Both the position numbers and the translations under genes were made by a program. Below, piece after piece: positions 4,200 through 25,550 of a DNA stretch of 35,561 nucleotides (within the stretch, counting starts at the first letter, position 1; each line of letters opens with the position of its first letter). The DNA is from Cryomorphaceae bacterium (lineage in GTDB: Bacteria > Bacteroidota > Bacteroidia > Flavobacteriales_D > Crocinitomicaceae): contig JAJTDQ010000005.1 of assembly GCA_021300505.1 (NCBI GenBank), positions 1 to 35,561 of the forward strand, written 5' to 3'. The notes under the pieces are model-generated. The model was not told the origin of the DNA. It searched no databases and worked only from the letters and a program-made list of their open reading frames with translations.

Positions 4200-4412
4200 T
4201 TAGAACATTCGAATCGCCCTTACACGGTAGGTATATTCTTTGGGGAAATTACCCACTTCGGTTTGGTTGATATTGAAGTTCACACTTCCAGCGGTTGCTC
4301 CAGTAAATTGATGTGAGGACCAATACCATGAAGGGAAGAAATTCCCTATTCCATTGAGTAATAAATTTTGACGCATTTTTCGCAATTCTTCGTAAGTTGG
4401 CAAGTACGCCCT
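4200..4412 (-). pseudogene. Out-of-frame C-terminal remnant of the FISUMP/DUF1566 domain
   Basis: In a different frame from the preceding lipoprotein ORF, this stretch encodes YLPTYEELRKM, then LNGIGNF, then SWYWSS, and ends with YRVRAIRMF. These are the hallmark blocks of the C-terminal half of Lcl/DUF1566 (FISUMP) domains: LP-x-x-x-E-L, YWSS, Y-V-R-A-(I/V)-R. The lipoprotein ORF carries the matching N-terminal block (YGDSVFGG) only a few codons earlier. The two halves are therefore separated by a frameshift, and the usual tens of residues between these blocks are missing. The fragment has no plausible start of its own; the ORF-track Met is a TTG coding for the Leu of LPTY. It is best read as the stranded 3' end of the 4346-5146 gene. 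Confidence 0.75.
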
Positions 4413-5146
4413 CCGAAGACAGAATCTCCATAAGTCAATTGTCCTAAATCTGATGTTTGAAAGGTTAACTGCTCGCCATACGAAGTCGCAATCGCATTCG
4501 TCGCAAAGGCGCGAACATAATACAAAGTACTCGGAATAAGATTGTCGACTTTAACATCAAAAGCACCTAGTCCACTGCCAACAACAACTGATGAATTGCT
4601 TGTTGTAGGATTGGATACGGTTGACCAACAAAATCCACGTTGAGTAACGATTTGAGCACCCTGGGAATAAACGGTTCCATACAACCTAGTTGAGTTGATT
4701 GTCGTTTCACTTGGTGCCAATGTATGCACTTCAGGCGAACCAATTGCGTTCCCTGTAGTAAATGATACAATTTTACTACACGACAAGCCTGCTTCACCTA
4801 TCACAAAAAATTTCATTTCGTAATAACTCGACAACTCAAAATTCAACAGCTTGAAATACGCTGACTTATCATCGAATGAAACAGGGTAAAGTGTGTCGGC
4901 TTGAAGAAAATCATTTCCTTTTACGACGATCAATCCGCGTTCTGTAATTTCACCATGATTTTCATTTAGAATATCCCCTTTTATTACGATTGAATCGTTC
5001 GACGCACTGAATACAGCCACAGACAAATCCGCCTTAACCGGCAAATCCCAACGTCTGTACTTATCGCAACCTACTGAAAGTAAGATGACAACAACGCAAA
5101 GTTGGAGGCTTACTAATTTAAAACTGAACATACTCTTTGAATTCAT
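4346..5146 (-). CDS. Lipoprotein with fibronectin-like repeats, C-terminally frameshifted
   Basis: A probable lipoprotein. A hydrophobic leader ends in LLSVGC, a slightly atypical lipobox. Two fibronectin-III-like modules follow with the recurrent Bacteroidota pattern ERGLIVV / TQRGFCWS, a Thr/Ser-rich turn, then STLYYVRAFATNAIATSYGE and a terminal TFQT strand. The protein then reads GQLTYGDSVFGG, the usual entry into a FISUMP/DUF1566 domain. After this the frame runs into unrelated residues (RTCQLTKNCEKC) and stops. The rest of the domain is found in another frame (4200-4412). I use the ATG at 5146 because the track start at 5152 is TTG. It overlaps the end of the 505-aa gene by about 29 bases and is the last gene of the envelope operon. 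It is either a decaying gene or a sequencing frameshift, but a one-base error alone would not restore the missing middle. Confidence 0.75.
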   Translation of the reverse strand: MNSKSMFSFKLVSLQLCVVVILLSVGCDKYRRWDLPVKADLSVAVFSASNDSIVIKGDILNENHGEITERGLIVVKGNDFLQADTLYPVSFDDKSAYFKLLNFELSSYYEMKFFVIGEAGLSCSKIVSFTTGNAIGSPEVHTLAPSETTINSTRLYGTVYSQGAQIVTQRGFCWSTVSNPTTSNSSVVVGSGLGAFDVKVDNLIPSTLYYVRAFATNAIATSYGEQLTFQTSDLGQLTYGDSVFGGRTCQLTKNCEKCVKIYYSME

Positions 5147-6635
5147 CAACAATTATAAGTTTGTCTTTTCGAATCGCGGACCGTATCACCCTTTCTTGAA
5201 CGTCATTTTCTATGCCTAGTTTTATTACCCATGAAAACTGAAACAGCCATGCGACAGCAGACACTCCAGTAGAAATTAACGATGCCTTATGCCATGTATT
5301 TGCGCGCACATAATTGGGAGATGATCCTATCGGAGCATCACTCGTTTCGTTATAGTATTTTTGGTAATAATGTTGCGAAACAACTTCCGATGTTAACGCA
5401 AAAATGGAAGGTAAAGCAACCATTCCAAAACAAAGCATTGATTTTTGTAAAGAATTTGACACCCTCCTCATTCCTAATCCCGGAACAACGGCAGAAAGCA
5501 AGCCATTTGCCCATCCATAGGCTCTATATTTTAATAGCTGAGTTGAATGAAATATAGAATCATTTACAGTGATGTATCTTTCTCGAATGGAATATTTGCC
5601 CAATGGGAAACCAAGATCACTTAAAATCGGTACTGAGTAAAAATTTTTTCGCCGAATCACATTGATTTCTGATGTGCGCACAGACATGCGAATAGGATAT
5701 TGCGCATTGACAAACTGACCACATAAAACACTAGGATAATGAAGGCTTAAAAGGATTTTTGCATTGTCAAAAGGAGGAGTTTCGCTTTCGGTAGTGTGCA
5801 GCGAAAAATGAGATTGATTTATTCCTTCACTTGTGTAAGCGATCGAAAAAGTAGTTGAGAATTCATTTTGCTTTGATATTTCACTGAAACGAATTCCATC
5901 GTAAATCAAACTTCTCTTTATCGAATTTGTCTCACTAGGATTCAACAGAGAATAATCAAAAATTTCATTATTTAATCTCATAGCATTCTGACCCGTGAAA
6001 TAGGACAATTCTGATTTATGAATCACCACATTACCATTGAAGGAAACCAATTCTGAACTTGCCCCAACGACTTGTCCAATAGGTATATCCCCATTGAAAA
6101 GAAAAAGATTTAGCGGCGTAAATGCCGCCCTACCAAATTGAAAGGTCTGAACTTCGCCACATCTGTTAAGCAAAAAAACCTCCTTGGAATTTAACCAAAT
6201 AGATTCAAAGAAAGAACGGATCAGATCTACAGAAGATTTGGACCTCAGATAATAGGATACTCCATTAAATACGAATGGATGCACCTCACGGTTGTTTTGT
6301 TGCACATAAAAACTCCTATCTTCCTGCTTCAGTGCAATGGAATCGAGCAATTGCGCAACGCGCGCTCCGAGGCGAAGGTAATCTTCCTTTCCTTGAATAC
6401 TTATTTTGAAAGAGAATAAACCTGTAACACCTTGGTTCGGATCACTCTCCTCAATTGAATAACTAAAGGCGTTTAAAGGATTGAATTCTATTTGCGCGAG
6501 GTTAGTTCTTAGAAAATCAACTTCTGCCTGTCCATCGATGCGCAAATTCAACGACGCAGCATGACACTCGTGCAAATTAAATTTGAACGTAAGAGATAAA
6601 ACGATAAATAAAAGAATCCTAAATGGGTGAGTCAT
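5118..6635 (-). CDS. Exported protein with C-terminal membrane hairpin, 505 aa, function unknown
   Basis: An N-terminal signal peptide (ILLFIVLSLTFKFNLHECHA) is followed by about 350 residues of beta-rich, presumably periplasmic sequence without a recognised domain. A C-terminal membrane region follows (about 370-480). It begins GLLSAVVPGLGMRRVSNSLQKSM, the (S)A(V/L)-x-PG-x-G pattern seen at the start of many Bacteroidota proteins with a DUF5683-like membrane tail, then hydrophobic segments (MVALPSIFALTSEVV and STGVSAVAWLFQFSWVIKLG), then a short charged tail. It is one of the last genes of the minus-strand envelope operon, 15 bases after the 4-TM gene and overlapping the lipoprotein gene. 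I infer it to be an envelope-spanning partner of the DUF4407 set; no catalytic motif is visible. Confidence 0.72.
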   Translation of the reverse strand: MTHPFRILLFIVLSLTFKFNLHECHAASLNLRIDGQAEVDFLRTNLAQIEFNPLNAFSYSIEESDPNQGVTGLFSFKISIQGKEDYLRLGARVAQLLDSIALKQEDRSFYVQQNNREVHPFVFNGVSYYLRSKSSVDLIRSFFESIWLNSKEVFLLNRCGEVQTFQFGRAAFTPLNLFLFNGDIPIGQVVGASSELVSFNGNVVIHKSELSYFTGQNAMRLNNEIFDYSLLNPSETNSIKRSLIYDGIRFSEISKQNEFSTTFSIAYTSEGINQSHFSLHTTESETPPFDNAKILLSLHYPSVLCGQFVNAQYPIRMSVRTSEINVIRRKNFYSVPILSDLGFPLGKYSIRERYITVNDSIFHSTQLLKYRAYGWANGLLSAVVPGLGMRRVSNSLQKSMLCFGMVALPSIFALTSEVVSQHYYQKYYNETSDAPIGSSPNYVRANTWHKASLISTGVSAVAWLFQFSWVIKLGIENDVQERVIRSAIRKDKLIIVDEFKEYVQF

Positions 6636-6650
6636 TCTTCTTAACCAAAA

Positions 6651-7127
6651 TTAGAATGGCAATTCTGGATAAGGAATAAATTGAGAAGCGATAGAGATCA
6701 ATACTGGTGCAATAACAAAAGACAAGGTAATCAGAATAATACCATGTAATCCAGCAATTTCTCTATTGTTCATCGATAATTCATGTTTTTCAACTTGCGA
6801 GGTAAACATCCCAACAAGAAAGAAACTTATCCAGAAAAATGCAAACGAGAACACCCACATACCAACAAAAAAGCCGATGGAATAAAGTATTGCGTTAACG
6901 AAATCTTGCTTATCGAAAAAGAAGGTAAATGCATTGGTAGAAATTTCCGAGATGTGATACAAATTCACCCCTGCCGAAAGTAAAGCCGAAAAATAGATCA
7001 TCAAAATGGCCATATTCTTTGGCGTAGAAATTTTATTCAGGAACTTACTAATTACGATTGAATAGGTAAACATATAAGCTATTCCAAGCAGAACAATAAT
7101 GACTAAGTTAATTACAGAAGTACTCAT
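6651..7127 (-). CDS. Small integral membrane protein, about 4 TM segments
   Basis: A 158-residue, highly hydrophobic protein. Segments are visible at about 6-28 (LVIIVLLGIAYMFTYSIVI), 37-58 (MAILMIYFSALLSAGVNLY), 75-107 (long, possibly two passes, around GFFVGMWVFSFAFFWISFFLVGMF) and 127-150 (IILITLSFVIAPVLISIAS). A charged loop (QVEKHELSMNNREIAG) separates the last two. The general size resembles DUF350-type proteins, but I cannot confirm membership. It lies between the second transglutaminase-like gene (25-base gap) and the 505-aa exported protein (15-base gap), so it is almost certainly co-transcribed with them. Confidence 0.75.
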   Translation of the reverse strand: MSTSVINLVIIVLLGIAYMFTYSIVISKFLNKISTPKNMAILMIYFSALLSAGVNLYHISEISTNAFTFFFDKQDFVNAILYSIGFFVGMWVFSFAFFWISFFLVGMFTSQVEKHELSMNNREIAGLHGIILITLSFVIAPVLISIASQFIPYPELPF

Positions 7128-7152
7128 TTTTACGTTGTTTTTTCGTTTAACA

Positions 7153-8043
7153 TTAATTTAAATAGGATTCCCAATCATTTCCTTTTACATCATACCCTAG
7201 CTGAAAGTCGCGTGCGGTAAGTTCCCATAAAAAGTATTTTTTACCCGAGGCATCTTTTCCGTAGCTTGGATAGGATCTGTTTTTCAGGTGAACACCCAAA
7301 ACACTGTGTCCCTCCTCCATACTTACCATCACCGCCACATCGAAACCGAGTTCGTTTAAGATTGTGTAAGCGAATAATGAACGCGTGTCACAGTCCCCCT
7401 TTTTGTGGTACATGAACTCTGCTGGAGCATATACCCCATTTGGCATGACTCCGCTACAACATCCTCGTCCATCACTTTGCACCTTACAATCTGCACTGAA
7501 ACTACCGAAAGGCATTTCACATGGACAATCTTCTTCATCACCAAGAACCAGTGTGTAGGGAATAAATTGAACCGCAGAGGCGATAAGTTCCATTGACTTC
7601 ATATATGCTTCGTCTCTTGGATAATTTTGCCGTTTAATTTCGGCTTTAAATGCCTTGATCATCGGATCCATGATCGGCAAGCTGTTGTCATGCAATTTGC
7701 CGTAAAGTACATTTAGAATATTCCCTTGTGACTCTCTAAATCCAGGTACTTGATTCAACTGCACTGAATCAACCGCAAAGGATATTTTATGCCATTTCCT
7801 GTCGTAATCCTGCCATTTCCAAACAATATTTATCTTGCCATTAACGGAACTCGTATCTTCCTTCTCCGTATCGCCCCATTCGTCATCTTGCTTATCTTCT
7901 GCCTTTACTTCCTTTTCCCATTCTTTCACCATTTTTTCATTAAAGAAAAAATGACCAAAAAAAGGAATGAATACAAGAAACAAAAAGAGAAGCAATATCC
8001 AGAAGACAAGGTTTCCAATGTTAAAATACTTCTTATTATTCAT
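7153..8043 (-). CDS. Membrane-anchored transglutaminase-like protein (copy 2)
   Basis: One N-terminal transmembrane anchor (about 10-32, LVFWILLLFLFLVFIPFFGHFFF) is followed by a charged linker (EKEVKAEDKQDDEWGDTEKED) and a papain-like transglutaminase-core domain. The catalytic Cys lies in KKGDCDTRSLFAY (about residue 218), the His in EEGHSVLGVH (about 246), and a late acidic partner probably in LWELTARDF. Extra cysteines (CPCEMPF, DCKVQ, GRGCCSG) suggest disulfides or a metal site and hence a periplasmic domain. By family knowledge such domains are thiol proteases or transamidases; the substrate is unknown. It sits directly after a DUF4407 gene (11-base gap). A second transglutaminase-like gene starts the same operon, so component types occur twice. 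Confidence 0.82.
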   Translation of the reverse strand: MNNKKYFNIGNLVFWILLLFLFLVFIPFFGHFFFNEKMVKEWEKEVKAEDKQDDEWGDTEKEDTSSVNGKINIVWKWQDYDRKWHKISFAVDSVQLNQVPGFRESQGNILNVLYGKLHDNSLPIMDPMIKAFKAEIKRQNYPRDEAYMKSMELIASAVQFIPYTLVLGDEEDCPCEMPFGSFSADCKVQSDGRGCCSGVMPNGVYAPAEFMYHKKGDCDTRSLFAYTILNELGFDVAVMVSMEEGHSVLGVHLKNRSYPSYGKDASGKKYFLWELTARDFQLGYDVKGNDWESYLN

Positions 8044-8054
8044 TCGAAAAAATT

Positions 8055-8996
8055 TTACCTGTTAGGTCGCTTTGTCCGATTGTAAAAATCAGCATAAGAT
8101 CTATTGGACAACCATTTTACATATTCCTCTTTTTCAATAAGAATAAATCGTCTTGACAAAATGTAATGGTCATTGGTAATTCTCAACTCTTGTACTACCA
8201 ATTCTCTCATTACCGGTCCTTTCAAAAACTCAGCACTTTTATTCAACAGAATGATAGGAAACAAGAAGATGATGAGGACAATAAAATCCATTAAATACTT
8301 CCAATACCCCAACCCTCTTGATAAAAATTCAAGATCTACAAGAAGTGAATTTGAGTTAATCAGTAGGAACTCTTTTCCTTTCGCCGCAGTAAATATGTAT
8401 TTCTTCGACCATGGATCGACCACGACTTCTTTCGATTGCAATAACTGGTCAATGGATTCATTTATTTGTCCACGAAACAGGAAAAGTTCTAATCCATTCG
8501 CTACGATAATCCCAAACAAAACCAATATGAGAACGAACATTAGTTTACCTATAAACTGATTGACAAATCCCGTTTTTCGCTGATTGAAATTTGCTGTAGC
8601 ATTTCTTATGGCGATTTTCTTGTCGGTGAGAAAAGCTTCGCGGTCCGCTTTGGATTGAAGTTCCATCACTTTAGCATCTGTCAAATCCTCAAATTCTCTT
8701 TTTTTATCAATCCAATTCAAGTAAAGCAACTCATCTTGAGGTGACAATGAAGCAATAATCAATAACCGTTGGAAATTATACATGACTAGACCAAGAAAAA
8801 CTCCAGTAAGTAGTGCTATGAGATAGGATTGAAAAACAATTGCCGCAAACAAGAACATGGAAAATGCAGCAAGTATTGATGTAACACTAATGAAAATGAC
8901 CAAGCGAGAGTAAATCTTTTTTTGACGATCAGCTTCATCAGTTGTGAGTGTCTCGAAAATCCCAGGACCTATGCCGATTTGTTTGTACAGTTCCAT
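8055..8996 (-). CDS. DUF4407 family membrane protein (copy 2)
   Basis: It resembles DUF4407 proteins: two closely spaced N-terminal transmembrane helices (VIFISVTSILAAFSMFLFAAIVF and ALLTGVFLGLVMYNFQRLLI), a charged helical and probably coiled-coil stretch (LYLNWIDKKREFEDLTDAKVMELQSKADREAF), a third TM (FVLILVLFGIIVANGLELFLF), then a further TM (LMDFIVLIIFLFPIILLN) and a charged C-terminus. The NFQRLLI segment replaces the N-x-DR-x-I block seen in copy 1. I chose the ATG at 8996 because it overlaps the preceding stop as TAATG, a coupled start. The track start at 9026 would add ten residues. No function is known for DUF4407; two copies in one operon suggest a hetero-oligomeric membrane complex. 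Confidence 0.78.
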   Translation of the reverse strand: MELYKQIGIGPGIFETLTTDEADRQKKIYSRLVIFISVTSILAAFSMFLFAAIVFQSYLIALLTGVFLGLVMYNFQRLLIIASLSPQDELLYLNWIDKKREFEDLTDAKVMELQSKADREAFLTDKKIAIRNATANFNQRKTGFVNQFIGKLMFVLILVLFGIIVANGLELFLFRGQINESIDQLLQSKEVVVDPWSKKYIFTAAKGKEFLLINSNSLLVDLEFLSRGLGYWKYLMDFIVLIIFLFPIILLNKSAEFLKGPVMRELVVQELRITNDHYILSRRFILIEKEEYVKWLSNRSYADFYNRTKRPNR

Positions 8997-10426
8997 TATT
9001 GAGGGCATATTAATTTGTAATCCCATTCCGTATGAGGATCTGGTCCAGGTGTCAATTTCACCATAAATCGAGTAGGCTTTCCTTTTTCTGCCTCATAATT
9101 CCATGAAATAGTTCCTGTCCCTGAAACCAAACCATTCGTGCTTCCAACCAACTCTCCATCGTAATACACTTCCATCATGTCCTTGGCATCAATCATGTTG
9201 TAGACAACGCCCACAATGCCTGACTTATCGCCTAATTCGTAATAATCGACAGTCACCTCATTTGTTCCATTCGCCTTCTTAGATGCACATGGTTCAACCT
9301 CAATTTTCGTGTCGTCAATTTCTTTTTTCTTTCTTTCAATCTCCTCGTCATATTCTTTGATCAAACGTTCACTTTGCGCCTTTTCGTAGTAGCATTGGAA
9401 GTGTCGACCTAGAGACGTACATTGTTTGAGTAAAAACAAAAGGAGTAGTAAAAGAAACAAGTATTTCAACCAATTTAAACACCCCTTATTTCTGCAACCA
9501 GCCTTTGCCTTGTCTATGGCATCTGTAATGGGCGAATTGGGGTTGTTTGGGTCCTTTACGCCGGTCCCTCCATTGTCTGGATCATTTGTATTCACAGGAT
9601 CATCACCTGCATTTGACGGTAAATTGGGTGGGATAAAATTGGGGCAAAATAAAGTGTAATCCCAAATGGTATCTGGTTCTTTGCCGGTCACAACAACTGA
9701 AACAGTGTTATCCTTATTGAATTTGTAATCGAAAGATTTCCATAACTCCGTTGATTGGTTACCGGAAGATAAATCTCCTCCAATGAAACCATCTACATTC
9801 GGGTGTACTTCATAGGTAGACCATATTCTTTTTCCCTCATAGTTCACCTCTAGTCGATCTATACGTTGTACAGGATTGAATCGCAGCCAAACTTTACCAG
9901 ATTCGGGTCCAAGATAAATTTCTCTTTGGTCAACGCCATATCCTCCCGATTTGTTTTCAGCATTGCATTGCAGACATGGCTCGTCTGGTGTTGGCTTGGG
10001 CAAGGGGGTGTCGATTGGTGGATTCACCTTACGCTCTAAAATTGATCCATAGAGCGTCCCTGAAATTTTAACATAGGTTTCGTCATTTTTCAAAGAAGAA
10101 TGAACACCTTTTTGAAAATTAGGTTGTTCAAATTTCACCTCATCCAAATTGAATTCGTAGAAATCAAAAATTCTTGGGATTTCGAATGGCCATTGACCAC
10201 CGGGTTCAATTTGAATGTTATGTACTTGATAAAATTCAAAATCAGTTTTTGGCAATTTAGCTTCTAAAGGCAATAACTCAACCTCAGTAACATGTCCGCG
10301 ATAGATATTCATTGAATGAAAATCATTCGGAGTGATTTCCTTTGAAAAATCATGGACATCTTTTTGCTGCGTAAAGAAATGGCCATCAAAGTGCGCCTTA
10401 ATCTTGTGAAGAACCTTATTTTCCAT
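8996..10426 (-). CDS. Single-span protein with two related beta domains flanking the membrane segment
   Basis: The N-terminal domain (about 1-135, opening HFDGHFFTQQKDVHDF) is homologous to the N-terminus of the OmpA-ended neighbour (GDLDGYFYTDQDKAVDKLF). A Pro-rich linker follows, then a beta domain ending TIWDYTLFCPN (about 265). A second linker (NTNDPDNGGTGVKDPN) leads to a KGCLNWLKYLFLLLLLLFLL membrane segment, a coiled coil (YDEEIERKKKEIDDTK) and a C-terminal beta domain ending TEWDYKLICPQ. The two beta domains share the closing motif (T-x-WDY-x-L-x-CP) and a V-x-Y-(D/E)-G strand, so they look like an internal duplication. No enzyme motif is visible. It overlaps the previous gene by 11 bases and the next start by one base (TAATG). 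Confidence 0.75.
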   Translation of the reverse strand: MENKVLHKIKAHFDGHFFTQQKDVHDFSKEITPNDFHSMNIYRGHVTEVELLPLEAKLPKTDFEFYQVHNIQIEPGGQWPFEIPRIFDFYEFNLDEVKFEQPNFQKGVHSSLKNDETYVKISGTLYGSILERKVNPPIDTPLPKPTPDEPCLQCNAENKSGGYGVDQREIYLGPESGKVWLRFNPVQRIDRLEVNYEGKRIWSTYEVHPNVDGFIGGDLSSGNQSTELWKSFDYKFNKDNTVSVVVTGKEPDTIWDYTLFCPNFIPPNLPSNAGDDPVNTNDPDNGGTGVKDPNNPNSPITDAIDKAKAGCRNKGCLNWLKYLFLLLLLLFLLKQCTSLGRHFQCYYEKAQSERLIKEYDEEIERKKKEIDDTKIEVEPCASKKANGTNEVTVDYYELGDKSGIVGVVYNMIDAKDMMEVYYDGELVGSTNGLVSGTGTISWNYEAEKGKPTRFMVKLTPGPDPHTEWDYKLICPQ

Positions 10427-11573
10427 TTTTCGACTTTAAAATGAAAATTTCCACGCGCATATTTCGATTGAACCACCTTCCTTTGCCATCTAATTGCCTT
10501 TCGTTACTGACAATTGGGGTCTTGTTCCCATTACTTTTCAAACGCAAACGTGACGATTCAATGCCATTGTCTCTCAAAAATTTGGCGAGGCTTTCCGCTC
10601 TTTTCAGATCGGTACCTGCTTTTTCTCTAGGTGCTGGATTTTCGTAACCCTCCAACGAAACAGAAATTTTAGGATACTTCTTCATGAATGTTAGCACTTG
10701 TTTAAAAGCTCCTACGGATGATGGATTCACATCGGCTGAATTTTCGTAAAAATAGACTTTCGAAATATTCGCCAACTCATTCGCTAAATTTGTATCGTAC
10801 ACCTTTTTCAAGGAGTCCAATTCTCTTTTGCGCTCGGTCTCTTTCAGCTTCATTCGATCGGCCTCATCACATGTTCGCTGTCTACCTTCATCGTCATTGC
10901 ATTTGCGAATCAACCACAGTAATAAAAGCAATAACAAAATCCATTTTAACCAAGATAAAATAGTGGTTAAACATCCCCTTCCTGAGGAAAGACAGCCCTT
11001 ACCTTTGTCTAGTAGGCCAGTGAATGGATTATTAGATCCAGGGGCATTGCCTCCTGGAACATTACCAGGACCATTACCAGGACCATTACCGGGACCATTA
11101 CCACCCGTGCCATCACCTCCTGTTTGCGGCGGAGCTACTTTCTTTAATGGCATTGGTTTCACCGTTTTTCCAATGACTTTGGAACGAACGTGGACATACA
11201 TTTTTCTTTGACCAGCCCTATCCTTAGAGCTAGACTTTATCAAATCTCTATCCGTGAACCAATGTTCCACATACTCTGGATTGATCAGCACCAAAGAACT
11301 AAAATCCAAACTTTCATCTTTATTGGATGTTGGAAATGACTTGAGCGTTAATCCTTTGACACCTGAGAGTATAATACTTTCATAATTCTCATATTCATGA
11401 GGTAAAAACTGATTCTTTATCTCAATATTCGTTATGTCACCCGAGTATAAATTAACGTTGAATTTATGCGCTTTCGAATCATGTTTTGTTTCAAATAGTT
11501 TATCTACAGCCTTATCTTGATCGGTATAAAAATACCCATCCAAATCACCGTATATCACATATTCTTCCGCCAT
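10416..11573 (-). CDS. Single-span protein with C-terminal OmpA-like domain
   Basis: The N-terminal domain (about 1-135) is shared with the 476-aa neighbour. A low-complexity Gly/Pro/Asn linker follows (repeats of GNGP), then a Cys-flanked segment (GKGCLSSGRGCL) and one very hydrophobic helix (LSWLKWILLLLLLLWLI, about 210-227). A coiled coil (KLKETERKRELDSLKKVYD) and an OmpA-like domain (about 265-380) complete the protein: KVYFYENSADV, ISVSLEGYENPAPREKAGTDL, KRAESLAKFL, NRNMRVEIF. In canonical OmpA the loop is a GHTD motif; here it reads EGYENP, so peptidoglycan binding may be altered or lost. There is no signal peptide, so the order is N-terminus inside and OmpA domain outside (inference). 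It lies between a DUF4407 gene and the 476-aa gene in the envelope operon. Confidence 0.82.
   Translation of the reverse strand: MAEEYVIYGDLDGYFYTDQDKAVDKLFETKHDSKAHKFNVNLYSGDITNIEIKNQFLPHEYENYESIILSGVKGLTLKSFPTSNKDESLDFSSLVLINPEYVEHWFTDRDLIKSSSKDRAGQRKMYVHVRSKVIGKTVKPMPLKKVAPPQTGGDGTGGNGPGNGPGNGPGNVPGGNAPGSNNPFTGLLDKGKGCLSSGRGCLTTILSWLKWILLLLLLLWLIRKCNDDEGRQRTCDEADRMKLKETERKRELDSLKKVYDTNLANELANISKVYFYENSADVNPSSVGAFKQVLTFMKKYPKISVSLEGYENPAPREKAGTDLKRAESLAKFLRDNGIESSRLRLKSNGNKTPIVSNERQLDGKGRWFNRNMRVEIFILKSKNGK
11056..11103 (-). repeat. Four 12-bp tandem repeats in the Gly-Pro-Asn linker
   Basis: On the plus strand the unit is GGACCATTACCA, repeated four times with single-base changes (GGAACATTACCA first, one ACCG variant). 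It encodes the GNGP linker of the OmpA-ended protein. The repeat length is a multiple of three, so slippage would change linker length without breaking the frame. Confidence 0.85.
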
Positions 11574-11626
11574 TACTACACTTTACAAGTCGACAAATCC
11601 ATCTAAATCAATAACTTAAAGATTAC

Positions 11627-12898
11627 TTACCCCCCTTTTTTCGTCTTGTCATCAAAAAACTGACTTGGGTCGTCTTTAATTTTTTTACTTTCCTCGTCAG
11701 CAAAAACTGTTATTGCCTCTTTCGCATTTCGCTCTTCCAATTCATTTTGGTGTTTGACAACTTCAATAATTCTTTTTGGATTGTAATTTGTGCCTGCCCA
11801 AATCAACTTACCATGTTCATCTTTAATTGGCTCATAATAAATACCCTGTTTGGCGATAAGAATTTGAGTCACATTGTCCTGCATGTACTCATATGCACTT
11901 TTCACCATGAACATCTTCAACAATACTGGTGCTACCTCGAGAAGAACGAATAAGAAACGAACCAAATTAATTGGCCACCACGCATTTCCATAGATTTCTT
12001 TAACAACAGGTTTTCCATTTTCCATTTTAATTTTGCCCGTAGTAGGATCATAGACTTCAACCAATTTACCTTCACTTGACAAGCGTTCAATCATCATAAT
12101 TTTATCCAGAAAACCAGGTTTTAGCGCCTTTATACTATCTGCAGCGTTGTTTAGCATTAGCACTCTTTTGTCCTCAAAGGATGCCAACACTCGTTTCAAA
12201 CTGTCTAATTCACGCTTTTTTGAATTAAATTCGGCTACTGCGTTATCACGAGAATCATATAGTGCAATGTGTCTGGGATTTGAACATGAAGTACCATCTG
12301 TACAAACTTGACCGTTCCATCCAGATGTAGTGAGCAAATCGATGTTATTATTCGCTTCAATCTTTCTCTGTTCAATAGGAATTAATTCGATTGAATCCTT
12401 TTTAATTTTGTCTGCTGTTGAACGGTATTCTCCAGTATTTAAAAACTCTTGCTCTACCTCGTATCGTCTTTTAATACTCATGTCCATCTTGGCATTTTCC
12501 CACTCACGATCAATTTCCTTGTCAAAAATCTCTGTCTCGAGTGGTGCGGAAATGGTGATCCCAATCAGTGCCGCCATCAACAAACGAGGTGCTGCAGCCT
12601 TAAGCTCTTGCCAACTCATCTTCTCATCTCCATCGCCTTTATTTACTGAGACAATGAACCTATCCAAATTGAAAATGATCAAACCCCAAATCAGAGCAAC
12701 AGGAATCGTTACAATCCATGACCCAAAAATGGTCTGCATTGCAAAACCCATTGCAAGTGTTGCCAGTACTGCAGTCGCAAATACTACTCCACCAATCCCC
12801 ATCATTTTCATGTGGTCGTAATAGCTCGCATATTGCATAATCTGCTCATCTCCACCTGCACATTTCCACAAAAAACGAGCAATCTTTTTGCCCCACAT
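11627..12898 (-). CDS. DUF4407 family membrane protein (copy 1)
   Basis: A clear DUF4407-type protein. The N-terminus (KKIARFLWKCAGGDEQIM) is family-like. Paired TM helices follow (GIGGVVFATAVLATLAMGFAM and IVTIPVALIWGLIIF), then the family signature NLDRFIVS, a third TM ending APLE (MAALIGITISAPLE), a roughly 180-residue charged helical region likely to form a coiled coil on the non-cytoplasmic side, and a final TM (LVRFLFVLLEVAPVLLKMFMV) with a charged cytoplasmic tail. I prefer the ATG at 12898 because the track start (12913) is TTG. A CTDGTSCSNP insert may form a disulfide in the outer loop. It is third in the operon, 23 bases after the single-TM gene. Confidence 0.85.
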   Translation of the reverse strand: MWGKKIARFLWKCAGGDEQIMQYASYYDHMKMMGIGGVVFATAVLATLAMGFAMQTIFGSWIVTIPVALIWGLIIFNLDRFIVSVNKGDGDEKMSWQELKAAAPRLLMAALIGITISAPLETEIFDKEIDREWENAKMDMSIKRRYEVEQEFLNTGEYRSTADKIKKDSIELIPIEQRKIEANNNIDLLTTSGWNGQVCTDGTSCSNPRHIALYDSRDNAVAEFNSKKRELDSLKRVLASFEDKRVLMLNNAADSIKALKPGFLDKIMMIERLSSEGKLVEVYDPTTGKIKMENGKPVVKEIYGNAWWPINLVRFLFVLLEVAPVLLKMFMVKSAYEYMQDNVTQILIAKQGIYYEPIKDEHGKLIWAGTNYNPKRIIEVVKHQNELEERNAKEAITVFADEESKKIKDDPSQFFDDKTKKGG

Positions 12899-12921
12899 TT
12901 TGTCAATATCCAACTTGTAAT

Positions 12922-13713
12922 CTACATTATTTCCTGATGCATTTTGTCACGAACCACATGAAAAAGGTGCTTCCCATTTTCTGTGTACTTTTGTGAATTC
13001 AAAAAATTCAATTTTACTGTATTTTGCTCTTCCAACAGGGCCGATAACACCTTGTTCCTATCGACGCCTTGAAATGGTGACGTATAATTCAACCTTTCAT
13101 TTATTGGATACGGAATTTTCGCATTGGGATAGGTGATACTCACCTTGGGCTGGGAATGCGTAAATGCAAATCCTGTATAAGCTGCACGTGTAAATTCCTG
13201 AGTAGTTGGTTGCATCAATGCTCTCGTCAAACCCATCTTTTGATTCACAAGTTTGGTTGTATTTAAATCCAGAATTTTATCAACCGGAAGATGCAAAATC
13301 TTCTTTTTCTTGCCTTGCAAGGTATAAATGGTCATTTTGAAAGTCGGTCGCTTGCGGTTCACAACGGTATAGGCCCCATTTCCTTTCAAATTCTTCCCTA
13401 CTCCATCGATATCTACACGATAAGCTCCAGTTACTCTCCAAGTTAGTATGATGCTCCCCCCATTCAATAGAAAACCTTGATCATCGGGCAACTTATAATA
13501 CTCCTTCCCATTCAAGGTAACTAAATAATGGTCTGGCGTGATGTCAAATTCAAAGTCAAGAATTTTCCCTTTTTCTTTGCGGTACCAGAAGCCAATGCAT
13601 TTGTAAATAATGCCAAAATAGGGCATCAAACCAAGTACAAGCAAAACCACAATGAATAACAATACCCCTTGAAGCACACTTAAACTAGCAAACCATTTGA
13701 ACACTTCTATCAT
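12922..13713 (-). CDS. Hypothetical single-TM protein, 263 aa
   Basis: One or two hydrophobic helices at about 13-42 (LQGVLLFIVVLLVLGLMPYFGIIY) are followed by about 215 soluble residues. The soluble part opens with a beta-rich region in which GGSIILTWRVTGAYRVDIDGVGKNLKGNG resembles an Ig-like fold that adds a bound strand. The rest is basic and mixed. I do not recognise a family. Its start overlaps the stop of the transglutaminase-like gene as ATGA, and it precedes DUF4407 copy 1 by 23 bases, so translation is coupled within the operon. Its position next to a transglutaminase-like gene parallels that of the 4-TM protein beside copy 2, though the two are not obviously homologous. Confidence 0.75.
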   Translation of the reverse strand: MIEVFKWFASLSVLQGVLLFIVVLLVLGLMPYFGIIYKCIGFWYRKEKGKILDFEFDITPDHYLVTLNGKEYYKLPDDQGFLLNGGSIILTWRVTGAYRVDIDGVGKNLKGNGAYTVVNRKRPTFKMTIYTLQGKKKKILHLPVDKILDLNTTKLVNQKMGLTRALMQPTTQEFTRAAYTGFAFTHSQPKVSITYPNAKIPYPINERLNYTSPFQGVDRNKVLSALLEEQNTVKLNFLNSQKYTENGKHLFHVVRDKMHQEIM

Positions 13714-14678
13714 ACGGCAACAGGATAAAATTCAAGATCAGAAACATCAGCCATCGGATAATCATCAGGAATATGCGGGGTAGTTGTCTCTATAAAATGA
13801 TATGTTTTTCCATTGTGTATTTTTGTCGATGTTCTTCTAAAGGGCATTCCCGCAACTGCAATGAACATATGCCCCCCCATTTCACCAGGAATATTCGGGT
13901 TTTCCATTTTACAGCTTACCAAAAGAATGTTGTCCTCTTCTATCAATTCCTTTAAAATTGACGCCATTAGTACGGATTTACTATCGCAATCACTGTAGCT
14001 CAATACAAATGATTCATAGGGCAAGGCCAGTTCTATATATTGAAATGGGGGGATCTCAAACTTAGGAATGCCATACGGCAAATGCTGTACAAAATTCTTT
14101 GCAGCTAACACTCTCGATACATAATCGTCTTTACCCAATTGCTGCAAATTCTCAACAATATGCGCTGCAATTTTAGCTGCAAACTGATTACTCAAATCAA
14201 CAACATAGGGATAATTCGTGTCAATAGTTACTTTACCATTGTTCGTTCTAATTTCAATACCTTTTAATGTATTCAAATCCTCAGTAGCTCCATATCCATC
14301 AATAACTTGTGAAACCTCAGTTGGATTCAAACAAACAGAAAAAGTCACGCTTTTACCTTTTATTATTGGGTATGTATAGCTTAAGTCAACATCTTGACCA
14401 TTGGCATTGATGCTTCCATCCACCTTGTAACCGAATTCATTAAAATTCTCTGGACCGTTTCTGTAATTTTTTCTAAATGTTTGGAGATGTTGTGTCAGGT
14501 GCTCGATAAGCAATAGATTGTTCTGGATTGAGGAAGGAACGTTTGTTGAACCGGTACCGTCAGGTGAATTCGGATCATTCGTAGAACTAGCAGCTCCTAA
14601 CAAATCAAAATTGCCATTAAATGCCAAATAAAATGACACAATTAGACATAAGCCCAGAATAGCAATTAGTTCATTCAT
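13710..14678 (-). CDS. Transglutaminase-like protein (copy 1), first gene of the envelope operon
   Basis: A signal anchor (about 2-22, ELIAILGLCLIVSFYLAF) is followed by a Ser/Pro/Gly-rich linker (SSTNDPNSPDGTGSTNVP) and an extracytoplasmic domain with the papain-like triad order: Cys231 in SYSDCDSKSVLMAS, His270 in GGHMFIAVAG, and an acidic residue in YHFIETTTPHIPDDYP. The C-D-S-K-S-V helix is typical of transglutaminase-like cysteine proteins (compare GDCDTRS in copy 2). I use the ATG at 14678 because the track start at 14693 is a TTG that lies inside the -7 box. Substrate and reaction are unknown; processing or crosslinking of an envelope partner is a reasonable inference. The stop overlaps the next start (ATGA). 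Confidence 0.82.
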   Translation of the reverse strand: MNELIAILGLCLIVSFYLAFNGNFDLLGAASSTNDPNSPDGTGSTNVPSSIQNNLLLIEHLTQHLQTFRKNYRNGPENFNEFGYKVDGSINANGQDVDLSYTYPIIKGKSVTFSVCLNPTEVSQVIDGYGATEDLNTLKGIEIRTNNGKVTIDTNYPYVVDLSNQFAAKIAAHIVENLQQLGKDDYVSRVLAAKNFVQHLPYGIPKFEIPPFQYIELALPYESFVLSYSDCDSKSVLMASILKELIEEDNILLVSCKMENPNIPGEMGGHMFIAVAGMPFRRTSTKIHNGKTYHFIETTTPHIPDDYPMADVSDLEFYPVAV

Positions 14679-14679
14679 A

Positions 14680-14698
14680 GTTAGTACTAACAAATATA
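14680..14698 (-). promoter_or_regulatory. -7 box and palindromic operator for the envelope operon
   Basis: Read on the minus strand, TATATTTG (14698-14691) is a perfect TANNTTTG -7 box. It directly abuts a perfect 12-bp palindrome GTTAGTACTAAC (14691-14680), which ends one base before the ATG at 14678. The layout suggests a repressor site on the transcription start, with a near-leaderless transcript. A TTG lies upstream but at a long spacing (about 26 bases), so the -33 element is uncertain. Confidence 0.5.
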
Positions 14699-14999
14699 AG
14701 TAATAATTAAAAAGTCCTTATATCCAAAACATTAATTTTCGAACTTCTCCAATTTAAATTTCTTACAACTAAAAAATCCCTAGCCATGGTGTTCCAAGAC
14801 TAGGGATTTAAAAATGTGGTGAAATTTTACTTTGGAACGCAATATTGCACTCTATTGTTGCGGAATCAAATTCTAATTAAACTTTATTGTTCGCCAAAGA
14901 ATAGGCGAGAATAATCACTGACTCTTTTCACGACAAGCGAATCGCTTGTCAAAAATGCTAAAATCTTTGCCACCACACTTGAGGCAAAAATAGAGAATT
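14699..14999. other. Gene-free, hairpin-rich intergenic stretch
   Basis: About 300 bases separate the two minus-strand operons. Besides the terminator at 14771-14809, I see a TCGCC/GGCGA stem (14891-14908), a 19-base near-perfect palindrome GACAAGCGA-a-TCGCTTGTC (14932-14950), a TTTGCC/GGCAAA stem (14966-14988), a self-complementary GCAATATTGC (14839-14848) and a pairing between GTTCCAA (14791) and TTGGAAC (14832). This is dense for random AT-rich DNA. It may be the structured 3' UTR of the RT operon or an independent small RNA. No known RNA family is recognised. Confidence 0.5.
14771..14809 (-). terminator. Probable intrinsic terminator of the RT/MoxR/vWA operon
   Basis: A perfect 10-bp stem AAATCCCTAG / CTAGGGATTT with a 16-base loop is followed on the minus strand by further T residues (six Ts in all at the end of the stem). 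It lies about 190 bases after the vWA stop, so the operon would carry a long 3' UTR. Confidence 0.65.
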
Positions 15000-16205
15000 T
15001 TACTCAACACGAATGACCTTTCCAGGTAAATGATCCGTTTTTTCGATACCACCATAGACGCACCACAATACCGGCAATGAAACACTTTCTCTAGGTTCAT
15101 TGGCATACGCATCCGTGAAATAAATTAGGCCATTGTACATTCTGTGTCGTTTACCCCACCTCAAAACAGGATCAAATGAGGTCCCGCCCCCGCCCCTAGG
15201 CTTGGGCATTGCCATTTGATTGCGCACATCGTAAACATGATGAATTTCAGCATCGCACTCCACCACGGTAACGAGTGTTCCGGTCTTGGAAATTGCCATT
15301 ATCTCGTTCCAAAACTCCTGAAACAAGGTGTTATTAATAGAGCCTGAGGTATCTATGGCAACAACAATTTTTCTCAACCGTTTAATTCTCACCCCAGGAC
15401 TACCTTCAAAACGTCGACTTTCTTTACGTCTTGTGGTTCGCAATACGGTTTTACCACAGGCAGAATTGAATAGTTTTACCACATGTTTCCAAGAGATTTT
15501 TGGTGGAGCCAACATCCCTTCGATTTCTCGTCTTATTCCCGCTGGCAAGCTTCCCCAGAACTTCGCATCCGTTTTTTCTTGCGCTGATTTCAATATATTT
15601 TTTAAAGCTCTTAGTGCTTTCTCCGAATGAACAGATTCTTCATCCTTCTTGGACCATAATTCGTGCGATCCGATGCAACTCGACGTTTGATGGCTTTCAT
15701 CTTCGGAATTGAGCTTTTGAAATAATTCATAACTCTTTGGATATTTCTCCGCCGCATCTTCTTTTTTCAATTCCAAGAGTTTGTTGTAGTAGTATTCGAA
15801 ACTCTCTTGTTTGGTTAGGCACAAATCTGGAAAGGAACTTATCAAGATAGCACCCTCAGGTAATGGCCAAGGATCAACGTATTGATTCACTACCAAATCT
15901 GCAGCGATATTCTCTATTTTTGGAAATACGCCTTTGCCACGAAAAAGATGGCTAAAAACGAGGTGTAAAAGCTCATGCTTCAAAACGGCCACCCGCTCCA
16001 ATTCATTTAATTTCTCGCTTATAAAAGTTGGATTTACCCAAAGTGTGAATGCTACATCATTATACGAAACAGCCATTGTTGGCACTTTGTCACCAATTAC
16101 GCGTGTTAATCCGGCAAATATATGAGCATAAAAGGGTTCAGGCCTTAATAGCTTTACAGCACTGCGCGATAGTAGAAATTCAGCCTCTGTTGTGACGGAT
16201 TCCAT
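15000..16205 (-). CDS. vWA protein with HExxH metallopeptidase-like N-domain (DUF2201-type)
   Basis: The N-terminal domain has the zincin motif KHELLHLVFSH (His77, Glu78, His81) and the family-typical follow-up NIAADLVVNQ (about 99-108). A helical middle follows, including LPAGIRREIEGMLAPPKISWK, and then a C-terminal von Willebrand A domain: VVAIDTSGSI (MIDAS Asp285, Ser287, Ser289), the GGGGTSFDPVL threonine loop (about 340-350) and YFTDAY. This is the two-domain architecture of the VWA-like/DUF2201 metallopeptidase family, which normally partners a MoxR AAA+ ATPase. Here it begins one base after the MoxR stop, which supports a physical pair. It is the last gene of the RT operon. Whether the zinc site is catalytic is unknown. 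Confidence 0.88.
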   Translation of the reverse strand: MESVTTEAEFLLSRSAVKLLRPEPFYAHIFAGLTRVIGDKVPTMAVSYNDVAFTLWVNPTFISEKLNELERVAVLKHELLHLVFSHLFRGKGVFPKIENIAADLVVNQYVDPWPLPEGAILISSFPDLCLTKQESFEYYYNKLLELKKEDAAEKYPKSYELFQKLNSEDESHQTSSCIGSHELWSKKDEESVHSEKALRALKNILKSAQEKTDAKFWGSLPAGIRREIEGMLAPPKISWKHVVKLFNSACGKTVLRTTRRKESRRFEGSPGVRIKRLRKIVVAIDTSGSINNTLFQEFWNEIMAISKTGTLVTVVECDAEIHHVYDVRNQMAMPKPRGGGGTSFDPVLRWGKRHRMYNGLIYFTDAYANEPRESVSLPVLWCVYGGIEKTDHLPGKVIRVE

Positions 16206-16206
16206 C

Positions 16207-17355
16207 TTAGAGCATTTTCATAAACTGACCTAATATCTCTTTATTCGTGACCACATTGTGTATGACTTTTAGTGAAGGACTATTGCTCAACTTGGCCTTT
16301 ACCAAATCGAGGTGAAAACCATACCTTAAATCAACCGGAATCTGATTTGACAATAATACATGAGCAAGTACTTTTTCAGCATTCTCAGTCGGTTCAAAAT
16401 TTTCCGACTTAAGCTTTAATACCACACGATAGAGTAACGTATTGATCAAGTCCAAACGAAGCCCTTTCGTTGTTTGCATCAAGTTGCCGATGGTTGAGTC
16501 TAAAGTCTGTGTATTGCTTTCGTCTAAGAACGATTCAGGTGAAGGCAATTGACCAAGACTATCCTCAATAAAGGTGATAAATGTATCCGCCACCTCTTGG
16601 TCGAGGCATCCTTTAGCAAGAATCTCAACAAGGTGAATATGTTGCTTTAAATCAGGAATTTGCTTTGTTTGACCAAAAAACTGAACCAAGGTACGTGGCG
16701 TAGTTCTTTTCATTGTCACCATTTCCGGGTAAGTCAACACAAAATTCACACCTCTTGCATCGATTCCCGCACCCAAGGCCCATTCGGCCCAAGCTTTCGC
16801 ATCGAATTTCAACGTTACGTGAATCATTCTTGTCAACATGGCCTCATCCATTGGGGTAACAGAGTAGTCTCCTGAATCCGGGTTGGCGGTAGCAATGATT
16901 TGCCAATTGGGTGGCAAGGACCACGAGAACATTTCAAAATTCTGAAGCAACTGCATGGTTCCTCTCAAAATACGGTCATCCGCTCTATTGATGTCATCCA
17001 ACAACAAAATTCCTGGGCCTGGATCTGTAGGCACCCATTCTGGTGGCAAATACACCGTTCTTTCATCCCCCACCACTGTTGGATCTGGATCAATTTTAAA
17101 GGGAAGTCCATGCAAATCACCCATCTCCTCAAATTGAGCAGGAGCACAATACGCCACTTTCCATTGTTTTTCTCTGGCCACTTCCATGGCAATCTCCGTT
17201 TTTCCCAAACCATGTGTACCCCAAATACAAATTGGAGTTGGTCTTCTTCCTGTATTGGCTTCAAACTGAAGATTAGATTCTAGAATACTATCTAAGAAAT
17301 CCACCAACCTTTTACCATCAATCGAAGCACCAAAACAACCGTCATTTTTACTCAT
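16207..17355 (-). CDS. MoxR-type AAA+ ATPase
   Basis: An AAA+ ATPase of the MoxR/dynein-like class. Walker A is WGTHGLGKTE (about 46-54). A long insert follows with FEEMGDLHGLPF and TVYLPPEWVP, Walker B is ILLLDDINRAD (about 116-126), sensor 1 is ATANPDSGDY (about 155-164), and an arginine-finger region is DEAMLTRM (Arg176). All catalytic residues are present, so it should hydrolyse ATP. By family knowledge such ATPases act with vWA partners as remodelling chaperones that insert metals, activate complexes or gate effectors. It overlaps the LRR gene stop as ATGA and precedes the vWA gene by one base, so the three products are probably made in fixed proportion. Confidence 0.92.
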   Translation of the reverse strand: MSKNDGCFGASIDGKRLVDFLDSILESNLQFEANTGRRPTPICIWGTHGLGKTEIAMEVAREKQWKVAYCAPAQFEEMGDLHGLPFKIDPDPTVVGDERTVYLPPEWVPTDPGPGILLLDDINRADDRILRGTMQLLQNFEMFSWSLPPNWQIIATANPDSGDYSVTPMDEAMLTRMIHVTLKFDAKAWAEWALGAGIDARGVNFVLTYPEMVTMKRTTPRTLVQFFGQTKQIPDLKQHIHLVEILAKGCLDQEVADTFITFIEDSLGQLPSPESFLDESNTQTLDSTIGNLMQTTKGLRLDLINTLLYRVVLKLKSENFEPTENAEKVLAHVLLSNQIPVDLRYGFHLDLVKAKLSNSPSLKVIHNVVTNKEILGQFMKML

Positions 17356-18626
17356 AAGCTACGAATATACATTCTATTATTCATTAACATTCTCTTGTCA
17401 TCAATCTTCAATTGATTGCCCCTCAAAAACAATTGAGTATGGATTCTGCTCAAATCATGCTCCTCTAGTTGAACGTCTTGTATTCTGTTGTCTTCTAAGT
17501 TTAAGCGAGATAGATTCACCATTTTCAATAGTTCACTTGGAATCGTATGGAGTAAATTTTCACTTAAATCCAAATGAACCAACGTAGAAAAATTGCTCAG
17601 GTCTTTCGGAAGGTGTTCTATGTAATTTTTAGACACATTGATCACTTCAATGGCAGATAATGGCGAATCGAAATCGAGCTGAGTAAGTTTATTTTCAGTC
17701 AAATCAATTTCCATCAAACTATCACCAGCCGCACCAAATTTGGGCAAACAAGTTAGCCTATTACTTCTTAGGCTAACTACAGAAAGCTGAGATAAAGCAC
17801 TAAGGTCAATCTCTTCTATTCGTTGATGGGACACATTCAGTTCCCTGAGATTTACTAGTTCTTGAATACCCCTCGCATCCCCAAGCTTACCATCAACAAT
17901 GTGTAGCGATGATAAATTTCGCTTTGGAAGCAGTGTAAAGTCGAATCTCTCTAAAGGAATTGATTCCAACTTGAACGCCTCCAATGTTTGGTATTGCATA
18001 TCGAAAGTAGGCTGAGTTGTCAACTCGCAGAAACTAAATTCTAGATTTCTTAAGCCATGCATTGCACTTAGATCCTCAGGCAGAATATCACCCTTAACGT
18101 TCTCGAAAATTAATTCCTCAACATAAGGACTTTTGTACAGAGAAGCTGTCAGCTGATAATCTGATTTCACATTTTTAATCTTTATACTTTTTAGTTGTTC
18201 TTGGCATAGTTGAAAATCCAATGGAAAAAGCACATCGATCAACTCTATGTCAAGGATTTCCACTTTTTGAATGGCCAACGCTTGAATGATTTGATACAAC
18301 ACACCCTTAGGACATTCCGTTAACAACAAGGGTAAAATCAAGGTGTTTTTATCGACTAAAAATTTTAATTCACAGGCGCGCAATCCGAAACGAATATCCG
18401 CAGGCATAGAACCATCTGCCCCAAAGGACAAAAGTGCCAATTGAATCATTTCAATTTTGTCAAGAAACAAATTCCTGTCCTGATCAGAGACAAAAGGGTA
18501 GGTTCTATGCCAAAGTGCGTCCGTTTCCTCCACCGAAAACAGCGAAATGAAAAGTGAATTTTGATCCCAATTTCTAAGATCAAGTATTAATTCTAACAAT
18601 TTAGATTCATTGTCCGCTGTGTCCAT
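17352..18626 (-). CDS. Leucine-rich repeat protein, 424 aa
   Basis: The N-terminal ~140 residues are helical and unrecognised. A solenoid of leucine-rich repeats follows to the C-terminus, clearest in the last 200 residues: LRELNVSHQRIEEIDLS, LSVVSLRSNRLTCLP, LMEIDLTENKLTQLDF, IEVINVSKNYIEHLPKDLS, LVHLDLSENLLHTIPSELL, LSRLNLEDNRIQDVQ. There is no signal peptide or membrane segment, so it is cytoplasmic, with a protein-binding role expected for LRRs. It lies between the RT-LRR fusion (11-base gap) and the MoxR gene (ATGA overlap). The same repeat style occurs inside the RT protein. A sensor or adaptor linking RT and ATPase is inferred. Confidence 0.9.
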   Translation of the reverse strand: MDTADNESKLLELILDLRNWDQNSLFISLFSVEETDALWHRTYPFVSDQDRNLFLDKIEMIQLALLSFGADGSMPADIRFGLRACELKFLVDKNTLILPLLLTECPKGVLYQIIQALAIQKVEILDIELIDVLFPLDFQLCQEQLKSIKIKNVKSDYQLTASLYKSPYVEELIFENVKGDILPEDLSAMHGLRNLEFSFCELTTQPTFDMQYQTLEAFKLESIPLERFDFTLLPKRNLSSLHIVDGKLGDARGIQELVNLRELNVSHQRIEEIDLSALSQLSVVSLRSNRLTCLPKFGAAGDSLMEIDLTENKLTQLDFDSPLSAIEVINVSKNYIEHLPKDLSNFSTLVHLDLSENLLHTIPSELLKMVNLSRLNLEDNRIQDVQLEEHDLSRIHTQLFLRGNQLKIDDKRMLMNNRMYIRSL

Positions 18627-18637
18627 TAAACGCTTGT

Positions 18638-24334: not shown

Positions 24335-24958
24335 ATGAACAATTCGGTTAATTCAGAAAATGGAATACTTTGGGTCGGTGACAAAGCACTTGAAACGTAT
24401 TTGAACACAGACAAAAATGTATTGAAAGCGTACACGAATTATTTATTATTATTCGATTCAAGTTACTCGAAGACAGATCGTGAAGTGACGTATTTGAGTG
24501 ATTTTGAAGAATCGGGTAAACTTGATTATGACTCCAACCAGCTATCGGAACCCATTCAGAAGTATTTTTCAACGATTGAAAACAAGAAAATTGATTTAAT
24601 GATTGGCAGTTCGTATGAACTACTTTTTCAAAAAATCATTGATATGGCGAAGGAGGTGAAATCGAGAGAAACGGTCAAAAACGACAAGGAGGAATATCAA
24701 TTGTTTTCGTTTCAACATTTCAGAAACAGAACGGAAACCGAATTTGATTTTTCAGCAAAAGACACCCTATTCTTAGAGCAAAACATTCCCTTCAAGGATA
24801 TGATTTCCGATTCAAAGAATACCATAAAAAAAGCGAAAAAATCTTATCGTAATGTTTTAACGACAAAGAAAGACATTGCTGAGATCAATGAGTTTTTATA
24901 TCGTTTTAGTGAGATGACTGGCGATGTAAGCAACTGTACGGATGTCGAAATAATATAA
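24335..24958 (+). CDS. Hypothetical protein upstream of the sigma factor, 207 aa
   Basis: A soluble, acidic, mostly helical protein that I do not recognise. It opens with ILWVGDKALETYLNTDKNVLKAY and has a lysine-rich middle (DSKNTIKKAKKSYRNVLTTKKD). It has no signal peptide, TM helix or cysteine pair that would mark a classical membrane anti-sigma factor. It lies 15 bases before the sigma-factor gene on the same strand and is divergent from the protease that starts the RT operon, so the two plus-strand genes form a unit. A regulatory partner of the sigma factor is a reasonable but unproven guess. Confidence 0.75.
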   Translation: MNNSVNSENGILWVGDKALETYLNTDKNVLKAYTNYLLLFDSSYSKTDREVTYLSDFEESGKLDYDSNQLSEPIQKYFSTIENKKIDLMIGSSYELLFQKIIDMAKEVKSRETVKNDKEEYQLFSFQHFRNRTETEFDFSAKDTLFLEQNIPFKDMISDSKNTIKKAKKSYRNVLTTKKDIAEINEFLYRFSEMTGDVSNCTDVEII

Positions 24959-24973
24959 TAACGAAACAAAGGG

Positions 24974-25546: not shown

Positions 25547-25550
25547 TTGA

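Follow-up and report, generated by a model that had tools for sequence, protein, structure and literature searches.

We describe here a set of eight adjacent genes on the minus strand (6651-14678) of a 35,561-nucleotide stretch of DNA, hereafter the window (contig JAJTDQ010000005.1 of assembly GCA_021300505.1), which belongs to a lake Bacteroidota metagenome-assembled genome (MAG) of 2.4 Mb and 85% completeness. The set contains two unequal members of the DUF4407 family (PF14362), called DUF4407a and DUF4407b, together with two transglutaminase (TG)-like proteins (TG1 and TG2), two single-span proteins with a common N-terminal domain, or N-domain (N1 and N2), an Ig-like protein (MP263), and a small membrane protein (MP158). 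This gene set is real, widespread, and undescribed, and there is good evidence that its products belong together; their assembly into a single complex has moderate support from the sequence patterns reported below. We tentatively propose, rating the idea somewhat short of an even chance, that the products of the eight genes form a single accessory complex in the inner membrane, which would pass a cytosolic signal to periplasmic enzyme heads. Genome context thereby yields a concrete hypothesis for one branch of DUF4407, set apart from the commoner solitary genes. The branch now comes with a definite gene set whose partners are fixed, an asymmetric pair of paralogues, intramembrane residues that can be tested, and a testable enzyme.

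Recurrence of the gene set in Bacteroidota

The preliminary description of this DNA had reported a ten-gene operon. The minus strand does carry ten consecutive open reading frames (ORFs) between 14678 and 4346, closely spaced or overlapping (distances in gene order from 14678: -4, 8, 53, -11, -31, 11, 25, 15, and -29 nucleotides). The conserved unit is nevertheless limited to the first eight: the ninth ORF recurs only in the loci L057 and L058, and the tenth is broken. We scanned 84,980 species genomes using an alignment of DUF4407a as the only seed, which gave 80 loci with flanks, and took twenty additional regions from genomes of the window's order. The recurrence of partners was read with profiles built from the window proteins and is not an effect of selection, because the DUF4407a query held no partner information. 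A DUF4407 pair was found in 87 loci, and nine had a single copy; a contig end truncates six of these nine, so that three are true singles. Hence, 87 of the 90 loci that are not truncated have the pair, and in nearly all of them an N-domain/TG protein and a small membrane protein come next.

The cassettes take several forms, which we write with T for TG, I for Ig-like, D for DUF4407, N for N-domain protein, and M for MP158. The minimal form, D-D-(N+TG)-M, was found in 27 loci, and the middle form, D-D-N-(N+TG)-M, in 12. The window-type form, with seven to nine genes, accounts for 20 loci, of which 10 read T-I-D-N-N-D-T-M, three have an extra gene, and seven have one N protein; the eight-gene set in identical order is present in 13 distinct loci, including the window. 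The distance matrices of DUF4407a, DUF4407b, TG, and MP158 correlate over 60 loci (r between 0.48 and 0.81; none of 2000 permutations reached such values). Shared ancestry of the genomes accounts for part of this agreement. Still, recurrence and matching distance matrices together put the association of these genes beyond chance.

Linked and paired genes are not the rule for the family as a whole. DUF4407 exceeded the cut-off in 121 of 396 Bacteroidota genomes, about 100 of which have one high-scoring, solitary-type gene. At least four of the 121 have a pair or a known cassette; this count is a lower bound because copy b often escapes Pfam. Solitary DUF4407 is thus the commoner form across the phylum, forms a separate clade, and sits in varied, ordinary chromosomal places. 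The expectation that a survey of DUF4407 neighborhoods would turn up linked partners therefore fails family-wide, where most genomes have single and unlinked genes, and holds for the window's clade. Solitary genes belong to the same family but differ from the cassette in occurring once per genome in most carriers and in lacking an a/b pair, an N-domain, or a TG. As earlier stated for DUF4407, our search of the open literature returned no functional account of the family; within the same scope we found no described system with this core, and the most similar kind, the Mot/Zorya motors, fails the tests given below.

The DUF4407 pair and its partners

The DUF4407a gene (11627-12913, minus strand) encodes a protein with four transmembrane (TM) helices and long helices, predicted to be periplasmic, between TM3 and TM4. 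DUF4407b (8055-9026, minus strand) is a divergent partner in which the TM4 Glu is lost and the putative periplasmic loop is shorter. Both pass the Pfam cut-off of 31.3 bits, with 159.2 (E 1.8e-46) and 33.9 (E 2.8e-8), in agreement with the preliminary description, and the window's genome has no further DUF4407 gene. In a maximum-likelihood tree of 88 DUF4407 sequences, the a copies form one clade (100/99), two intruders aside, the b copies cluster apart from it, and almost all solitary sequences fall outside both groups. The nine window-type rows form a single clade within a (100/99) and another within b (100/100); several b rows are long-branched, so that the fine order of b is unsure. Since the two groups have matching window-type clades, the duplication is old and the pair is co-inherited: a and b derive from one ancient duplication, as read from their sequences. 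This bears out the earlier view that the locus did not arise by simple tandem duplication.

The two copies differ in their intramembrane residues. Leaving aside L126 and L099, where the a gene is split in two, D84, R85, E126, E326, and K333 of DUF4407a are invariant (85 of 85); they are located inside predicted TM helices or at their ends. In DUF4407b, Phe replaces E326 in 67 of 85 sequences and D84 is mostly Tyr or Leu, with P329 kept in 84 of 85; copy a thus retains the intramembrane charges of the family, and copy b is without most of them. Solitary DUF4407 proteins are mostly a-like, with D84, R85, and P329 in common and, for the most part, E126 and E326. The asymmetric loss of charges in b, with the scaffold kept and the working residues lost, is the pattern that would be expected of a dedicated heteromeric partner. 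An AlphaFold2 model of DUF4407a built from 49 sequences (predicted local distance difference test, pLDDT, 84) shows two membrane helices and a third, followed by the long helices (131-262) and then by a fourth that crosses the membrane; the C terminus is also helical. The positive-inside rule makes a periplasmic location of helices 131-262 probable.

Some relatives of the pair are found in other contexts. In the Methylococcaceae MAG locus L126 (11065-14396), a DUF4407b-type domain is fused to a caspase domain (2e-33), next to a DUF4407-DnaJ fusion, and these fusions adjoin a DUF4407a gene and a zinc-ribbon/N-domain/OmpA protein. Solitary DUF4407 genes lie beside VWA-PP2C-kinase genes in L041 and L150, and the L041 locus also links an Ig-like domain to DUF4407. 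The caspase and DnaJ fusions and the VWA-PP2C-kinase linkage hint at signaling or conflict. In Lak megaphages, whose genes were read with TAG as Gln, a single full-length solitary DUF4407 gene lies downstream of a gene resembling those for TonB-dependent receptors (L157:9977-11236 and L158:9956-11251).

The single domains are mostly known folds, and, apart from the DUF4407 pair and the OmpA protein, none of the ten ORF products exceeds a curated cut-off in Pfam or NCBIfam. N1 (10416-11573, minus strand) has a putatively cytosolic N-domain, a TM helix, and an OmpA-like head (Pfam, 32 bits against a cut-off of 27.2, E 1.6e-7). N2 (8996-10426, minus strand) has the N-domain, a beta-sandwich, a TM helix with the N1-type Cys pattern, a coiled coil, and a second beta-sandwich of GOLD/jelly-roll type. 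Its model (pLDDT 77; predicted template modeling score 0.40) contains GOLD/jelly-roll-like sandwiches, with a match to a p24 GOLD domain at a TM-score of 0.6 that is meaningful as a local match, unlike the full-length hits. The N-domain common to both proteins had been noticed before and holds up (phmmer 4e-12 within the window, in agreement with the alignment): the two proteins have about 120 homologous residues in common, as well as a TM helix with an invariant GC before it and a near-invariant C after it. Fused TG proteins have a member of this domain family at their N terminus (hhalign E 1.1e-6; 3.7e-5 for the window N2 against the fused-TG N-terminal profile). The N-domain is fused to TG in most cassettes and to DUF4407b in L042 (E 2.9e-6). 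The heads of the N proteins vary among OmpA, beta-sandwich, TG, a tetratricopeptide repeat with a DUF3761-like end (L107), and a Cys/His-rich end (L113 and L116).

Do these heads reach the cell wall? OmpA/Pal-type domains bind diaminopimelate through an Asp and an Arg. In the window N1, the GHTD motif has become GYEN, with the Asp lost and the Arg kept, and the Asp is lost in most window-type cassettes as well. In the middle form, the OmpA heads are canonical and keep the Asp; the minimal form has no OmpA protein. The span from inner membrane to cell wall suggested in the preliminary description is thus likely for the middle form, and wall anchoring is doubtful in the window cassette because the peptidoglycan-binding Asp is lost.

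TG1 (13710-14678, minus strand) and TG2 (7153-8043, minus strand) each have one TM helix, N-terminal in TG1, and a TG-like domain, of transglutaminase/papain-like type in TG1, that is predicted to be periplasmic. Their kinship, already proposed, is borne out by mutual profile matches and by a common Cys-His-Glu triad. All 100 domain-bearing sequences, in the TG1 and TG2 families alike, have C218, H246, and E274 (TG2 numbering). The TG1 family is restricted to window-type cassettes by profile comparison, and the relatives of TG2 mostly sit fused behind an N-domain. The TG proteins are probably active cysteine peptidases or transferases. They resemble the transglutaminase-like cysteine peptidases (Transglut_core, CEP76-type) in the Cys-His-acid triad and a GDCDT-type motif, and differ from them in being membrane-anchored, in having Glu as the acid, and in being too divergent for the Pfam cut-offs.

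The last two members had been described as a pair of small membrane proteins, a claim that did not survive. MP263 (12922-13713, minus strand) has one TM helix followed by a beta domain that the positive-inside rule places in the cytosol, and in many loci a relative of it is encoded immediately upstream of DUF4407a. MP158 (6651-7127, minus strand) is a small four-TM protein and the usual final gene of the cassette. Their profiles do not match each other.

A possible signaling complex and the alternatives

How could these proteins work together? We propose that the core may be a heteromer of DUF4407a, with its four spans, periplasmic helical stalk, and membrane charges, and the degenerate DUF4407b, accompanied by the cytosolic Ig-like protein encoded beside DUF4407a. 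On the single-span subunits, united by their cytosolic N-domain and TM helix, the outer heads would be interchangeable modules of OmpA-like, beta-sandwich, TG-like, or other kinds. A signal from the cytosol would reach the Ig-like protein and the N-domains, the DUF4407 core would then change state, and this change would position or release the periplasmic Cys-His-Glu enzymes, which could cleave or cross-link envelope or incoming proteins. We infer the membership of this complex, its topology, the direction of signaling, and its function from sequence.

Some results weigh against this proposal. A Foldseek search of the PDB with the DUF4407a model gave nothing below E 0.04, and therefore no mechanism can be transferred from a known structure; sequence searches for solved relatives of DUF4407 and TG returned none that was credible. 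Six cassettes (L107, L108, L113, L116, L118, and L132) have no TG head, and therefore the enzyme is not part of every version. Moreover, the putative activity of the TG proteins is deduced from the triad and from weak, below-cut-off matches of individual relatives to three TG-superfamily models (CEPT76_peptidase, Transglut_core, and Transglut_core3), none of which matches the window proteins. A bolder version of the proposal would make the cassette a new class of transmembrane signaling, in which a sensor-gated DUF4407 pair activates periplasmic TG-like proteases on interchangeable anchors for a programmed attack on the envelope or a response to invaders. We regard this as quite unlikely; if it were true, the caspase fused to DUF4407 itself in one lineage would belong to it.

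The cassette could instead maintain the envelope or respond to stress without taking part in conflict, its TG heads processing periplasmic or wall-associated proteins and its OmpA or sandwich heads providing position. All three kinds of head (enzyme, OmpA, and sandwich) are predicted to face the periplasm, the OmpA head is canonical in the middle form, and the ordinary chromosomal settings of solitary DUF4407, common in related families, fit a housekeeping relative. A DUF4407 gene is also among the PhoP-dependent genes of Riemerella anatipestifer, listed without information on a cassette (PMC9603813). This explanation is rather unlikely, since the cassette is patchy even inside one genus, where two of five genomes have any DUF4407, and heads have been swapped between lineages, which is unusual for housekeeping systems. 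Patchiness, with 18 of 199 genomes of the order, would suit an anti-phage or conflict (suicide) system whose cytosolic parts sense infection and whose cysteine protease, periplasmic or cytosolic, damages the cell or blocks entry. NACHT/STAND genes near some cassettes, the DUF4407b-caspase fusion, and the VWA-PP2C-kinase-DUF4407 operons point the same way, as does the MoxR/VWA pair that adjoins the window cassette and forms a core of the published MoxR-vWA ternary conflict systems (PMC7159879). Yet the cassette itself has none of the genes of the MoxR-vWA or VWA-PP2C-kinase systems, and the association is occasional. No cassette protein matches PADLOC models, and cassette neighbors (92 genes) gave matches to 19 PADLOC families, fewer than the 158 matched by 92 control genes taken elsewhere in related genomes; the samples in this comparison are small, and family counts differ from protein counts. 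A defense-island location was rejected for want of any PADLOC excess over these controls, and so was a plasmid- or phage-borne cassette: there was no plasmid match, and phages (the Lak megaphages and two IMG/VR contigs) hold only solitary DUF4407 from the other clade. We consider a conflict system unlikely.

A polytopic protein with conserved TM glutamates beside a single-span protein with an OmpA-type periplasmic head also recalls ion-driven motors such as MotAB, TolQR, or ZorAB, with DUF4407 as the channel part and N1-OmpA as the peptidoglycan-bound partner. We judge this very unlikely. The single TM span of ZorB has an essential Asp (D24/D21; PMC11890865), whereas the TM helices of all N proteins are leucine-rich and align without one; MotA, ExbB, and ZorA are absent from the top 50 Foldseek matches of the DUF4407a model; and most window-type N1 proteins have lost the peptidoglycan-binding Asp. 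On these grounds, a Zorya/Mot-like motor was rejected; the cassette further differs from such motors in that OmpA is dispensable, being absent from minimal cassettes, and in its additional TG enzymes and N-domains. Finally, the cassette could be the membrane arm of a single system that includes the adjacent VWA/MoxR/LRR/RT genes (15000-22996). In L058, as in the window, this module is found upstream of the cassette; MoxR/VWA genes lie beside a cassette in L072; and the MoxR subfamily, present in only four of 199 genomes, occurs in two of the order's three genomes that have a window-type cassette, the window's among the two. However, the module is absent beside the intact cassette of the closest relative (L057), lies on a different contig from the cassette in genome G161, occurs without any DUF4407 in genome G145, and is separated from TG1 by a terminator-like hairpin. 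An obligatory unit is largely refuted by L057, G161, and G145, and we find the membrane-arm explanation highly improbable.

Flanking and neighboring genes

For TG1, an ATG start at 14678 is preferred over a TTG at 14693. The sequence TATATTTG (14691-14698, minus strand), 12 bp ahead of this ATG, resembles the Bacteroidota -7 element weakly, with no clear -33 element; TAAATTTG stands at the equivalent position of L057. The hairpin that separates TG1 from the VWA gene, AAATCCCTAG...CTAGGGATTT with T's after it (14774-14809, minus strand), was read from the sequence and has a loop that exceeds the length accepted by the terminator scanner. It was not seen in L057, the locus without the upstream module.

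The ninth and tenth ORFs are flanks and not core. The ninth (5118-6635, minus strand) encodes a 505-aa protein with relatives only in the nearest loci, L057 and L058. The tenth (4346-5152, minus strand) is a broken lipoprotein gene, whose intact relative in L057 encodes 400 aa ending in an Lcl/FISUMP-type domain. A tblastn search with the L057 protein placed its displaced C-terminal part in another frame at 4203-4406 (minus strand), and about 82 residues are missing relative to the intact copy. The break (4203-5152) could instead be an assembly error of the MAG. Genes for an acyl-CoA thioesterase, HSDR_N, SNase, and DUF6804 also occur in flanks and were rejected as members of the system, as they recur too inconstantly. 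In ten loci (L046, L058, L061, L063, L073, L074, and four others), the acyl-CoA thioesterase (4HBT) gene is next to the cassette or close by, on either side and in either orientation, which may reflect either a hotspot or a functional link.

On the other side of the cassette, a DUF2201 VWA protein, a MoxR-like AAA ATPase, and a leucine-rich repeat (LRR) protein are encoded at 15000-18626 (minus strand) and form, with a reverse transcriptase (RT), a rare accessory module. Of the MoxR-vWA ternary systems, whose third component is VMAP, iSTAND, FtsH, or a beta-propeller, the MoxR and VWA parts were identified in it. The RT (18638-22996, minus strand; 1452 aa) is most like those of retron type III-A, followed by an Lcl-like stretch and leucine-rich repeats, and its full-length relatives in G145 and G161 are 35-36% identical. 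The gap to the gene upstream of it is just 10 bp and offers no obvious site for a retron RNA. Further along, 24335-33074 encodes a sigma-factor-like protein of 190 aa, preceded by a protein of 207 aa, and an AAA/STAND-like membrane protein of 1611 aa; the genes for the two smaller proteins are kept in L057 and L083, and that for the largest in L057.

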